Below are positions 58,067 to 61,837 of a stretch of 64,000 nucleotides of DNA, one piece after another. Position 1 is the first letter of the stretch; the number at the start of each line of letters is the position of its first letter. A model generated the notes under the pieces. That model was not told the DNA's origin. It ran no database searches and worked only from the letters and a program-made list of their open reading frames with translations. Origin of the DNA: Streptomyces griseus (GTDB lineage Bacteria > Bdellovibrionota > Bdellovibrionia > Bdellovibrionales > Bdellovibrionaceae); assembly GCA_943330705.2 (NCBI GenBank), contig CALQIT020000004.1, forward strand, positions 1 through 64,000. Direction: 5' to 3'. Position numbers and translations under genes: made by a program.

Positions 58067-61000
58067 TTAAAGGCCACCGGCACTGCTAAAAATCGCGTCG
58101 CATCTTAATCCGCCACCTAGTCCGCCAGTGGATGCACTTCTTGATTTGAGCTTCACTATTGGTTCTGCATAGCCTTCGCGAATATCGTAGCCCAGCTTTT
58201 CAGCGACTTCACGAATTTCGTCAGCGGACATCCGGATTCCGCTAATATTTATTTGTTTAGCTCGGCCATCGGCGCCCAATAGTACTCGCATTTTTTCGAT
58301 TTCTTCGACTGCAACGCCATTGACCTCTTGTTCGTCAAACCGAACCATTCTGAAATCATTTAGGCCAGAAATTTTTTGATATAATTTCGCGGTCAAAGCT
58401 CTAGCCGAATCAGGAAATAGTGAATCATATTTTGCCGAAAACTCGGTCCATCTTTTATTTATAGTCTGAAATGGAAGCTTAATTGTATGAAAACTGCTTT
58501 CATCTATAAATTTAATATTTGCGAACAACTCAGCAGGCGGAACAATTAACATCTTCGCAAATCCCGCCAAGGGCGCTAAAGCTTTCTTCAAAGCTTTTAC
58601 TCCGCGATTCATTGTAAATTCTCTAATTTTGGCGGCCCTATAGACAACCCCCGCCCAGTCACCAGGGCTGCGGAACTCCTTCAATCCGTTCTCACCAAGA
58701 AATGAATTGAGAATTAAGCTTGTAAAAGAACAATAACCACCACCGACCATGTAGTACAAATATGGGGTGATCCAAAGAAAAATATAACCCTTGGCAACCA
58801 AATGTTGAACCATGCCATAGAAGGACTTTGAATAGATTTTATAAGCAGCGGCAGGTGTCTCTGCAAAAAATAGAGCATCGACTTGGGTTTGCGTTAGGCC
58901 CTCAAGCTTCCATGGAACCTCTTGTAATTCCTTCTTTGGATCGTTTGCTACAATAGGAACCCCAGTTTCATCAACTTTAGGCATGTAAAAGTTAAATTCT
59001 TTTAAAATTTGTGATCCAACTTTTGGCGGAACTCCGCCATTGGCTGCCTTTGCTCTTTGAATCGCATCAAAAAGTTTTTGAATATCCGGCGTTGAATAAA
59101 CTAGCCCAGTGTGCTTAGCCGCCGTCACAAAAGTGTGAAAGTCGCCTTTACGTAGGCCACCAGCGTTTGCCAGAACAGCATTGCGTTTACTTAGCTTCTC
59201 AATGATTAATTGCTTTTCATTCCTAAGCTTGGCAGATATCCCTTCATTGCTTGCTAGCTGTTCTAGTTTAGCAATTGCCTTCAATCTCTTTACAAGTTTA
59301 GAAGAATCTGGGTCTTTTACGGAATAGTCCTCATCGATTGTCCGATCCGGATGGGAATCAACCACGTAGGTCGTTCTAATTCCTGTCACTTCATCAGTTA
59401 GAACGACGGTATAACCAATATGGGAATAGCCTTCTTGGAAATATCTTTGAACAAGCCATTCTCTAAATTTTTCCCATTTTGAGTAGCCGTCTTTTGTGTC
59501 GTCCTTTTCAACAAAAATTGACATTGCTAGAATTGCTTTTGCTAGGCTGCTGACTAGATTCATTTTTTTCGCAATAGCTTTGGATTCAGAGCCAACCGTA
59601 GTGCCAGCAGGAATAAATTTTCCTTCCTTGCTTTCCTCTTGGTGGGTTCCTAAATTGCCACCTGTCATGGCTTTAACTCGTAGCTTTTTCCCGCCTTCTT
59701 GCTGAATCAATAGGTCATCACCAACGAAGTTTTCAAAATCCAATCCATATTTGCTAATCAAAACCTCGCGAGTGGCATCTTCCAAAGACGAGCTTTTGCT
59801 TTCCACACCAATCCGCTTGACCAATAGGGCCATTGCTCGACCCATGTATTTTGTTCCGCCGATTTGGTAATCCAGATACATTCTGTCGACCCACTTGCTA
59901 ATATGTGGATCCATTTCTTTAGCACTTTTTTCAATCTGGCTGGCTGTAGCTAAATCTAAAGTCCCAGCATTATACATTGAAACCTTTTCTTCACCGAACA
60001 TCGAGTTAAGAATATCATTGCGAAGGTTTTCAACATGTCTATTCATAAGCGCTTTTAATTTTAGATCGACGTCTTTACGGGCAAGTTCTGGATGCTCTTC
60101 TGCCAATCTCATCCTTGCTAAGTCCATTGCTTCGCCGTCATACAAAGGCATCATTTGCTGGGCAGCTAAATGGCCGGTTAGATTTGCAATAGCTTGCCTA
60201 CCTTCAGGCGTATTCATTTTTTCTTGCATTTTTTCCATTATAATTACGGCCAGATCTCGGGTCGCATCTTCAACTAAATAGCTTTTTAAATTTCGCGCCT
60301 GTTGCACCTGACTAGCGTCATGATAGGTTTCGCCCCTGTCTATATAATCCCTAATTTTTTCAGTGGTATCGCCAAATCCTAAAGCGGTAAGAAATCGAGT
60401 CATCTCTTTGCGATCAACTGTCTTTAGATCCATTTTTCGGGTCAACGCTTCTTTTGCAATTTCTTGGCGAATCCTAGCAGATTTTGTGGATTCTGGAATC
60501 CGAGTGTCAGCAAGAAGCTCGGCAAAGTCTTCAGTGACAGCCTCATATCTTACCAAGTTGTCGACAATTTCCACTGGAATATTCCGATCAGATGTATGCT
60601 GTTCAACCAACTGATGAATCCTCATTGTTGGGTCCATCGCAGAGTAGCTGTACGCAGTTTCACGTGATAATTGCGTCTTTGACTTCTTATTAATATCTAC
60701 TTTGTATTTTAGACTATTCCCGTTGGCAGTTGTCTTTGTAACCGTAGCGCTTACATTCGCAGCGTCGCCATAGGCATTGGCATCCATAATTAAGACTCTA
60801 CCGGTTTCGTCTTTTTCATAGCCAAAATTTGAGCCAATTCCAGTCTGAGGATCAATAAATGATTTTACCGCAACCTCGACTTCACCGCTTGACTTATCAC
60901 GGCCGAAAAAACCAAACATCTTTTTCAGGAGACTTCTTGATGCCGCTGCTTCTTTAGAAAGGCTTTCATTATATTTGTAGGTAACCGTTGTCCCGTTCGG

Positions 61001-61837
61001 ATTGACCGAGAATTCTCTGGATTTAATTTGCAGTTTTCCATTTTCCATTGAGGGAACTGCGATTACAATTTTTCCACTGGTGTACTTATCTAAGTTATCA
61101 CCTTTTGCTGCTGTCATTCTTCTTAAGTTTTCATGCAGATTTAGTGATGGCTTTCCGGAAACCTTATCATGGCGTACCAAAAGTTGGGCCAACGCACGGC
61201 CAAGAAAGCTAGTTCCCGACATTTCTGGATTTGAGTACTTTGCAAGCATCCAGTTGGTAAGATCTTTTTGTAACTTTTCCCAGTTTTCTGGCTTTGATTC
61301 GACCACGACTTTGGCTTCTTCAGCAGTATAGACTGTTGCTAAAATATGCTCGAGTAGCATATTAATATCATTATGCAGAGCTTCGTTAATATCCTGTCTC
61401 AATGATTTTAGAGCCTCTTTAGTTCTCTCCGTTTCATCAGGTATGCGTTTGATTCTTTCGCGAAGTTCCTCTGACTTTCCTGTCAGACCAAAGGTTAAAA
61501 GGCGAGCCGTAAGCTCAAGCATACGGGCGCGCACGCGAACATCAGTTTCAATTCGCGGACCCGCCGTCTTAAAAATACGAATGGCTAGTTGTCTGGATAG
61601 CTCAATGACAGCAACCTTTTGTAAATCTTTAGGGTCATCAGCATTTAGACCATGTGCTATTGGATCTATTCCAGTGCGCTTCAAAAAGGCATTCAGCTCT
61701 TCAGGGGACTCGGGATCAACGGCCTGATTAGAGTTGGCCGGCGGCAATGCCCAAGCAGAACTGAGGTGACTTACCGACCCCGTAAGAGCCAGAACTAGAG
61801 AAAGCGTCACCTGCGTATACGATCTAAACTTATTCAT
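58067..61837 (-). CDS. Giant exported protein with an internal duplication and a possible permuted papain-like domain
   Basis: The 1256-residue protein has a signal peptide ending near residue 30 (SAWALPP). Two related regions, about 150-365 and 600-835, share the pattern G-T-S/K-F/Y-L/M-G-R-A-L/M-A-x-L-L-V plus following strands, showing an ancient duplication. In the second, HIGYTVVL (His806) is followed after 16 residues by YVVDSHP, and GGGYCSFTSLILNSF (Cys1036) lies some 230 residues later. This order (His before Cys, Y-C-S-x-x-x-x-x-x-x near a helix) fits permuted papain-like amidases of the YiiX type. The C-terminal end is Gly-rich. It has its own upstream region with no other gene in the operon. 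Enzyme activity is a hypothesis. Confidence 0.75.
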   Translation of the reverse strand: MNKFRSYTQVTLSLVLALTGSVSHLSSAWALPPANSNQAVDPESPEELNAFLKRTGIDPIAHGLNADDPKDLQKVAVIELSRQLAIRIFKTAGPRIETDVRVRARMLELTARLLTFGLTGKSEELRERIKRIPDETERTKEALKSLRQDINEALHNDINMLLEHILATVYTAEEAKVVVESKPENWEKLQKDLTNWMLAKYSNPEMSGTSFLGRALAQLLVRHDKVSGKPSLNLHENLRRMTAAKGDNLDKYTSGKIVIAVPSMENGKLQIKSREFSVNPNGTTVTYKYNESLSKEAAASRSLLKKMFGFFGRDKSSGEVEVAVKSFIDPQTGIGSNFGYEKDETGRVLIMDANAYGDAANVSATVTKTTANGNSLKYKVDINKKSKTQLSRETAYSYSAMDPTMRIHQLVEQHTSDRNIPVEIVDNLVRYEAVTEDFAELLADTRIPESTKSARIRQEIAKEALTRKMDLKTVDRKEMTRFLTALGFGDTTEKIRDYIDRGETYHDASQVQQARNLKSYLVEDATRDLAVIIMEKMQEKMNTPEGRQAIANLTGHLAAQQMMPLYDGEAMDLARMRLAEEHPELARKDVDLKLKALMNRHVENLRNDILNSMFGEEKVSMYNAGTLDLATASQIEKSAKEMDPHISKWVDRMYLDYQIGGTKYMGRAMALLVKRIGVESKSSSLEDATREVLISKYGLDFENFVGDDLLIQQEGGKKLRVKAMTGGNLGTHQEESKEGKFIPAGTTVGSESKAIAKKMNLVSSLAKAILAMSIFVEKDDTKDGYSKWEKFREWLVQRYFQEGYSHIGYTVVLTDEVTGIRTTYVVDSHPDRTIDEDYSVKDPDSSKLVKRLKAIAKLEQLASNEGISAKLRNEKQLIIEKLSKRNAVLANAGGLRKGDFHTFVTAAKHTGLVYSTPDIQKLFDAIQRAKAANGGVPPKVGSQILKEFNFYMPKVDETGVPIVANDPKKELQEVPWKLEGLTQTQVDALFFAETPAAAYKIYSKSFYGMVQHLVAKGYIFLWITPYLYYMVGGGYCSFTSLILNSFLGENGLKEFRSPGDWAGVVYRAAKIREFTMNRGVKALKKALAPLAGFAKMLIVPPAELFANIKFIDESSFHTIKLPFQTINKRWTEFSAKYDSLFPDSARALTAKLYQKISGLNDFRMVRFDEQEVNGVAVEEIEKMRVLLGADGRAKQINISGIRMSADEIREVAEKLGYDIREGYAEPIVKLKSRSASTGGLGGGLRCDAIFSSAGGL

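Follow-up and report, generated by a model that had tools for sequence, protein, structure and literature searches.

A tandem-duplicated exported protein of the Bdellovibrionota with a predicted permuted papain-like thiol centre in its second copy

Little is understood about the permuted NlpC/P60 enzymes of bacteria, and the few that have been characterised are lipoprotein acyltransferases and phospholipase toxins. The window analysed here, a stretch of 64,000 nucleotides from a lineage with predatory relatives and many permuted papain-like enzymes, contains at 58067-61837 a gene for which an earlier note had proposed a 1256-residue exported protein with an internal duplication and a possible papain-like amidase. 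What kind of enzyme does this gene encode, if any, and on what would it act? The reading that we consider likely as a whole is an exported permuted papain-like thiol enzyme that belongs to a family of its own and is duplicated in tandem, its second copy being catalytic and, by analogy, acting on an acyl substrate.

The gene is an uninterrupted open reading frame (ORF) on the minus strand, which begins at 61837 and reaches its stop codon at 58067; upon translation of the region, the plus strand is full of stops. The product has a plausible signal peptide at its N terminus (MNKFRSYTQVTLSLVLALTGSVSHLSSAWA followed by LPPA), and export signals also begin most homologs. As read from the sequence, it is plausibly an exported protein, either periplasmic or secreted, which is in line with the earlier proposal. 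Upstream on the same strand are cyclophilin and GlnE-like sequences. A hairpin followed by T residues just past the cyclophilin gene (about 62039-62011), which was found by eye and is unlisted by the hairpin scan, suggests that the gene is transcribed separately. An ABC_tran ATPase and an FtsX-type permease follow on the same strand, 75 bases downstream. Among 15 homolog loci, there is no conserved gene neighbourhood save one block common to two relatives. The main parts of the gene are as follows.

58067..61837, minus strand: whole gene (ORF and translation, 1256 codons plus stop)
61748..61837, minus strand: signal peptide, residues 1-30, with cleavage likely behind AWA (sequence reading)
60629..61630, minus strand: first, degenerate copy, residues about 70-403 (self-alignment and independent profile; no Cys, and Val362 opposite His806)
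58487..60412, minus strand: second, intact copy, residues about 476-1117, a helical domain followed by a predicted permuted papain-like core (homolog profile and AlphaFold model of 478-1214)
58478..59737, minus strand: predicted papain-like core, residues 701-1120, broken up by inserts (the matching core of homolog L021 folds confidently and matches YiiX 2if6)

The proposed duplication was confirmed by self-alignment. BLASTP of residues 1-480 against residues 481-1256 matched 143-285 with 593-747 (E=2e-8), and a Smith-Waterman alignment of the halves, spanning about 70-403 and 514-843, scored 132 (300 shuffles: mean 42.7, SD 5.8, maximum 82). A profile built from 12 homologs from other genomes, which excluded the window protein and the two further tandem relatives, matched both halves, at 76-273 (56.9 bits) and at 476-1192 (245 bits). 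Copy 1 aligns confidently over the helical domain, which carries a GRA(L/M)A motif (213 and 666). Its papain-like part (290-403) aligns weakly and has diverged far, and is backed by two relatives whose first copies retain that part. These relatives, L002 and L008 (two genomes, both of a single different genus), are also tandem proteins and their first copies retain more of the papain-like part; that of L002 reads GYNTVG where GFSHIG is expected, and both lack a Cys at the nucleophile position and are dead. L002 is truncated by a contig edge, and the L008 gene abuts a transposase ORF at its 5' end. The latter gene (L066:6255-10154, minus strand, in genome G065) starts directly after this transposase-like ORF, which ends in EEVA and a stop; judging from the sequence, a mobile element may have taken the place of its original 5' end. 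In the window protein, Val362 of copy 1 is aligned opposite His806 of copy 2, as the earlier note had it in describing the histidine as lost, and the only two Cys of the whole protein, 1036 and 1246, are both in copy 2. By sequence, copy 1 is a pseudoenzyme devoid of the His and the Cys. Its role would probably be structural, substrate-positioning or regulatory; that it binds without cutting is a guess.

Single-sequence and profile searches found homologs in 14 of 369 genomes of Bdellovibrionota, or 15 with one marginal match at E=0.008. Their sources include one MAG named Bdellovibrionaceae and another named Oligoflexia, and no relative was found in plasmid and phage collections. This patchy distribution argues against an essential housekeeping function or a core role in predation, and the interest for a predator that had been raised is not borne out. 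Neither the whole protein nor the family profile matched Pfam, NCBIfam or PDB sequences, and the family is described by none of these libraries. A DUF6471 hit at residues 459-503 (E=0.0015) was rejected, being under its cut-off and outside the core. In a 15-row alignment (A4) with a mean column identity of 24%, the only invariant columns are G803, S805, H806, W976, Y1035 and C1036. All conserved residues except W976, D827 included, form or flank the proposed active centre, the parts of which are listed here together with two other features.

59420..59422, minus strand: His806 in SHIGY, proposed general base (invariant, 15/15)
59357..59359, minus strand: Asp827, proposed third member of the triad, where YiiX has Glu (Asp 14/15, His 1/15)
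59168..59266, minus strand: charged insert of 33 residues, 858-890, found chiefly in the window protein (almost every other A4 row is gapped here; low model confidence at its start)
58910..58912, minus strand: Trp976 in the helical insert (invariant, 15/15)
58778..58780, minus strand: Phe1020, where NlpC/P60 proteins have their signature tyrosine (Phe 14/15, Tyr 1/15)
58730..58732, minus strand: Cys1036 in GGYCSFTS, proposed nucleophile at a helix start (YCS) (invariant, 15/15; the model helix runs from its residue 559, which is residue 1036)
58100..58102, minus strand: Cys1246, 10 residues from the C terminus, sole other Cys (a C-terminal Cys is common among homologs)

The order His, polar residue, Cys that defines the permuted arrangement is thus present as H806, D827 and C1036 (15/15, 14/15 and 15/15), His806 (HIGY) and Cys1036 (GYCSFTS) lying where they had been placed earlier, whereas the canonical NlpC/P60 order is not, as His806 comes first and no Cys lies ahead of it. 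The GD motif of strand 1 occurs in 8 of the 15 homologs, and the window protein has GGN. In the YiiX set described below, an invariant Tyr lies 13 residues ahead of the Cys. The assignment of Phe1020 rests on profile alignment and on the same spacing of 13 between Phe and Cys in several homologs, the spacing of 16 in the window protein being explained by a three-residue insertion. The helical insert is otherwise variable though Trp976 is fixed, and a YiiX counterpart of this Trp is not known.

Structure prediction gave two outcomes for the fold comparison that had been suggested. The AlphaFold model of copy 2 (478-1214; pLDDT 72.6, pTM 0.75) has the order strand(His)-strand(Asp)-strand(GGLR)-strand-helix-insert-helix(Cys), which agrees with the strand/helix order of the permuted papain-like core. 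As assessed by Foldseek against the PDB, however, this 737-residue model resembles helical proteins or bundles only (E>0.2) and no papain-like protein. A compact homolog core was therefore folded instead. The core of L021 (320 residues, 21% identical to the window core) reached a pLDDT of 85.7 and a pTM of 0.86, and among 350,542 PDB chains its two top matches were chains B and A of 2if6, E. coli YiiX, with a probability of 1.00 each, TM scores by target length of 0.63 and 0.67, and E-values of only 5e-3 to 7e-3. The alignments used contained no YiiX sequence. In a viral structure library, ranks 1 and 2 were OPG091 and a protein named 'Permuted papain-like amidase'. The modelled L021 core has the five strands plus Cys helix of the common core fold. 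On sequence grounds this fold would transfer to the window protein, and the superposition of the modelled homolog core on YiiX makes a large separation of His806 and Cys1036 unlikely.

Profile comparison points the same way. We gathered 11 YiiX proteins of the same phylum with the Pfam model and aligned them (A5). When the family profile (A6) was compared with this set using hhalign, the score was 40.0, against at most 18.2 for 99 column-shuffled versions of A5 and 13.7 for the reversed one. In a global alignment, the motifs SHIG, GGxR, YCS and I(V)xP line up with SHVG, PVKxT, YCS and IxP of YiiX; because one of 100 global-mode shuffles gave an aberrant 133.5, global scores were not used as a measure of significance. 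The long C92 proteins of the phylum (500-600 residues) show a weak profile likeness (25.5 versus a null maximum of 19.2). Kinship to Lnb/DUF4105 (PF13387) was rejected, with a profile score of 18.2 versus a null maximum of 24.3. The Pfam C92 model (PF05708) matched neither the window protein at E<=10 nor the homologs at E<=0.1.

The export signal, the homology of the halves, the invariance of the catalytic residues and the YiiX-like fold of the homolog core are computational results. We are highly confident of a permuted papain-like fold, and the fold and the order of the residues place the protein in the permuted NlpC/P60 superfamily. Since there is no Pfam C92 match, and considering Phe1020, Asp827 and the large helical insert, it is not a member of YiiX/C92; it represents a new family beside YiiX/C92 in the permuted papain-like NlpC/P60 superfamily. 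The kinship with YiiX and NlpC that had been put forward holds at the level of the superfamily, by fold and residue order, and fails at that of the C92 family. The proposal of a permuted papain-like protein with His before Cys is upheld by the YiiX ranks of the L021 core, the hhalign score and the invariant residues.

Several observations on related proteins of the phylum were made along the way. Lnb/DUF4105-type proteins of about 600-700 residues are present in 79 of 114 genomes, with up to six per genome (e.g. L093-L106), numbers that far exceed one lipoprotein acyltransferase per genome. The exported C92 set of 500-600 residues (L037, L045-L062) has a long N-terminal helical part and the motif LEKTPFRLTDKFIPGHxGH, then the usual EALRPGV and VCSE. 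In genome G065, a C92 (YiiX) gene (L065:7831-8688, plus strand) adjoins a homolog of our gene on the opposite strand, and the neighbour of the homolog in genome G057 (L067:4830-6704) is a penicillin-acyltransferase-like protein.

Characterised relatives indicate what the centre might do. The features common to permuted members are a Cys/His dyad with a polar residue, a tyrosine that is conserved, a GD motif and an S1 pocket that is hydrophobic and binds acyl groups (PMC3142127). In YiiX this pocket holds a fatty acid, and the protein was proposed to be an amidase on fatty-acyl amides; the signature tyrosine, which faces the P1 carbonyl, was called essential, and the narrow hydrophobic S1 pockets of permuted members were judged unsuited to peptides (PMC3142127). 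Tox-Act1 cuts PG and PE (PMC12994826), LnsA takes part in lipoprotein N-acylation (PMC7387801), and Lnb is described as acting on lipoproteins in a statement for which its source cites others (PMC12994826). In copy 2, Asp827 would orient His806 and His806 would activate Cys1036, which, given the membership of the superfamily, would attack the acyl carbonyl to form a thioester. This thioester would be released either to water, as in an amidase or lipase, or to an amine or alcohol, as in acyl transfer, and copy 1 would be the dead tandem partner in the same chain. By its conserved catalytic residues, the protein is very probably an active thiol enzyme, in which the Phe in place of the signature tyrosine could mean weaker or altered chemistry. 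Since acyl groups are what the permuted relatives act on, we rate a lipid or lipoprotein above peptidoglycan as the probable substrate. The most likely substrate would be a phospholipid, a lipoprotein or another acylated envelope molecule, and by analogy with the relatives we lean slightly towards an acyl lipid or lipoprotein. Against this explanation count the weak Foldseek E-values of the L021 core and the missing papain-like match for the window protein's own model, the Phe at the signature position, the GGN that replaces GD in the window protein, and the lack of a conserved gene neighbourhood from which a substrate could be read. Of the peptidoglycan or lipid amidase suggested earlier, the lipid half is kept, in the direction of lipids and lipoproteins indicated by the characterised relatives (PMC12994826, PMC7387801), while the peptidoglycan half has become less likely in view of the acyl-binding S1 pocket (PMC3142127).

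The same permuted thiol centre might instead cleave peptidoglycan or protein at an amide or peptide bond, for example in wall remodelling or digestion of the prey wall. The protein is exported, belongs to a Bdellovibrio-type family, and canonical NlpC/P60 enzymes act in this way; for YiiX, too, an amidase role has been proposed, albeit with fatty-acyl amides as substrates (PMC3142127), and the Tyr-to-Phe change could go with a changed pocket. The canonical Cys-first order is nevertheless missing, the S1 pockets of permuted members are judged not to suit peptides (PMC3142127), and Pfam shows no wall-binding domain, so that we consider a cell-wall enzyme unlikely. An acyltransferase rather than a hydrolase, placing for instance an acyl chain on lipoproteins in a task like that of Lnb or LnsA, seems to us just as improbable. 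Transferases do occur among the permuted relatives, namely LRAT, LnsA and Lnb (PMC7387801, PMC12994826), and the gene adjoins the FtsX/ABC_tran-type transporter pair, but this neighbourhood is not conserved, the Lnb profile score stays below its null maximum, the window's own genome already has three Lnb-type (DUF4105) genes, and the family is far rarer than expected of a lipoprotein maturation enzyme.

The two Cys raise the question of a disulfide. Of the 14 homologs whose C termini are complete, 10 have a Cys among their final 12 residues, compared to 13 of 58 exported-like ORFs at neighbouring loci and 19 of 105 sampled from the same genome (about 18-22% over both samples); the binomial probability of 10/14 versus 13/58 is 1.3e-4 if members are taken as independent, which homologs are not. 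A C-terminal C..[VI][FL] was rejected as a genome-wide sorting tag, since in 464 kb of the same genome only this protein, 1 of 105 exported-like ORFs, has it. Elsewhere, an atypical kinase of ABC1 type that has an apparent export signal (L068:9836-11977, minus strand) ends in GLRCEVVFTVR, which closely resembles our protein's tail, GLRCDAIFSSAGGL. A putative Cys1036-Cys1246 bond, as a latch or a structural disulfide, is possible. A purely structural role without catalysis, with Cys1036 kept for this bond, would fit a mature protein with two Cys only and a lost signature tyrosine; it is highly unlikely, as the 4 homologs of the 14 that have no Cys in their last 12 residues still retain the equivalent of Cys1036, and His806, unneeded for a disulfide, is invariant too. 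Only a little less doubtful is a new class of self-controlled acyl enzyme, with a tyrosine-less catalytic domain and a dead copy in one chain, which a reversible Cys1036-Cys1246 disulfide would keep off until reduction or tail cutting. We give hardly any weight to a chance resemblance, in which an all-helical exported protein has an unrelated fold: the whole-model search yielded helical proteins only and Pfam is silent, but the core model searches in two libraries, the profile test with its null and the residue invariance stand against it. The preferred reading therefore remains the permuted thiol enzyme with an acyl substrate. Its altered active site (Phe1020) offers a test of whether the signature tyrosine is truly required, and the enzyme-pseudoenzyme pair within one chain offers a test of what a dead copy does.

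Among known systems, YiiX/Peptidase_C92 (PF05708; E. coli 2if6, B. cereus 3kw0) is the best structural match. The two share the order GD-His-acid-Cys, an SH ahead of a strand, YCS at a helix start with an IxP motif after it, and the same strand/helix order. They differ in the third triad residue, Asp in our family and an unvarying Glu in the YiiX set, and in the Phe that our family has in place of the signature Tyr. Our family is also longer, by about 100 residues from the acid to Cys and by about 50 from GD to His, and carries an added helical domain of 220 residues; the window protein has in addition a tandem dead copy and a lost GD. Lnb/DUF4105, a lipoprotein N-acyltransferase, is likewise a permuted NlpC/P60 protein, exported and large, and is common in this phylum, but there is no detectable profile similarity and its FGHTFLR and ENCS motifs are missing from our protein. 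Tox-Act1, TseH (both by description only) and LRAT/HRASLS resemble it in having a permuted His-then-Cys core that acts on acyl groups; no sequence match turned up, and 114 genomes of the phylum searched with an LRAT model gave no hit. Finally, the poxvirus OPG091 (G6R) group and the permuted papain-like amidases of giant viruses, which provide the top viral-library matches of the core, are small viral proteins that lack the helical inserts.
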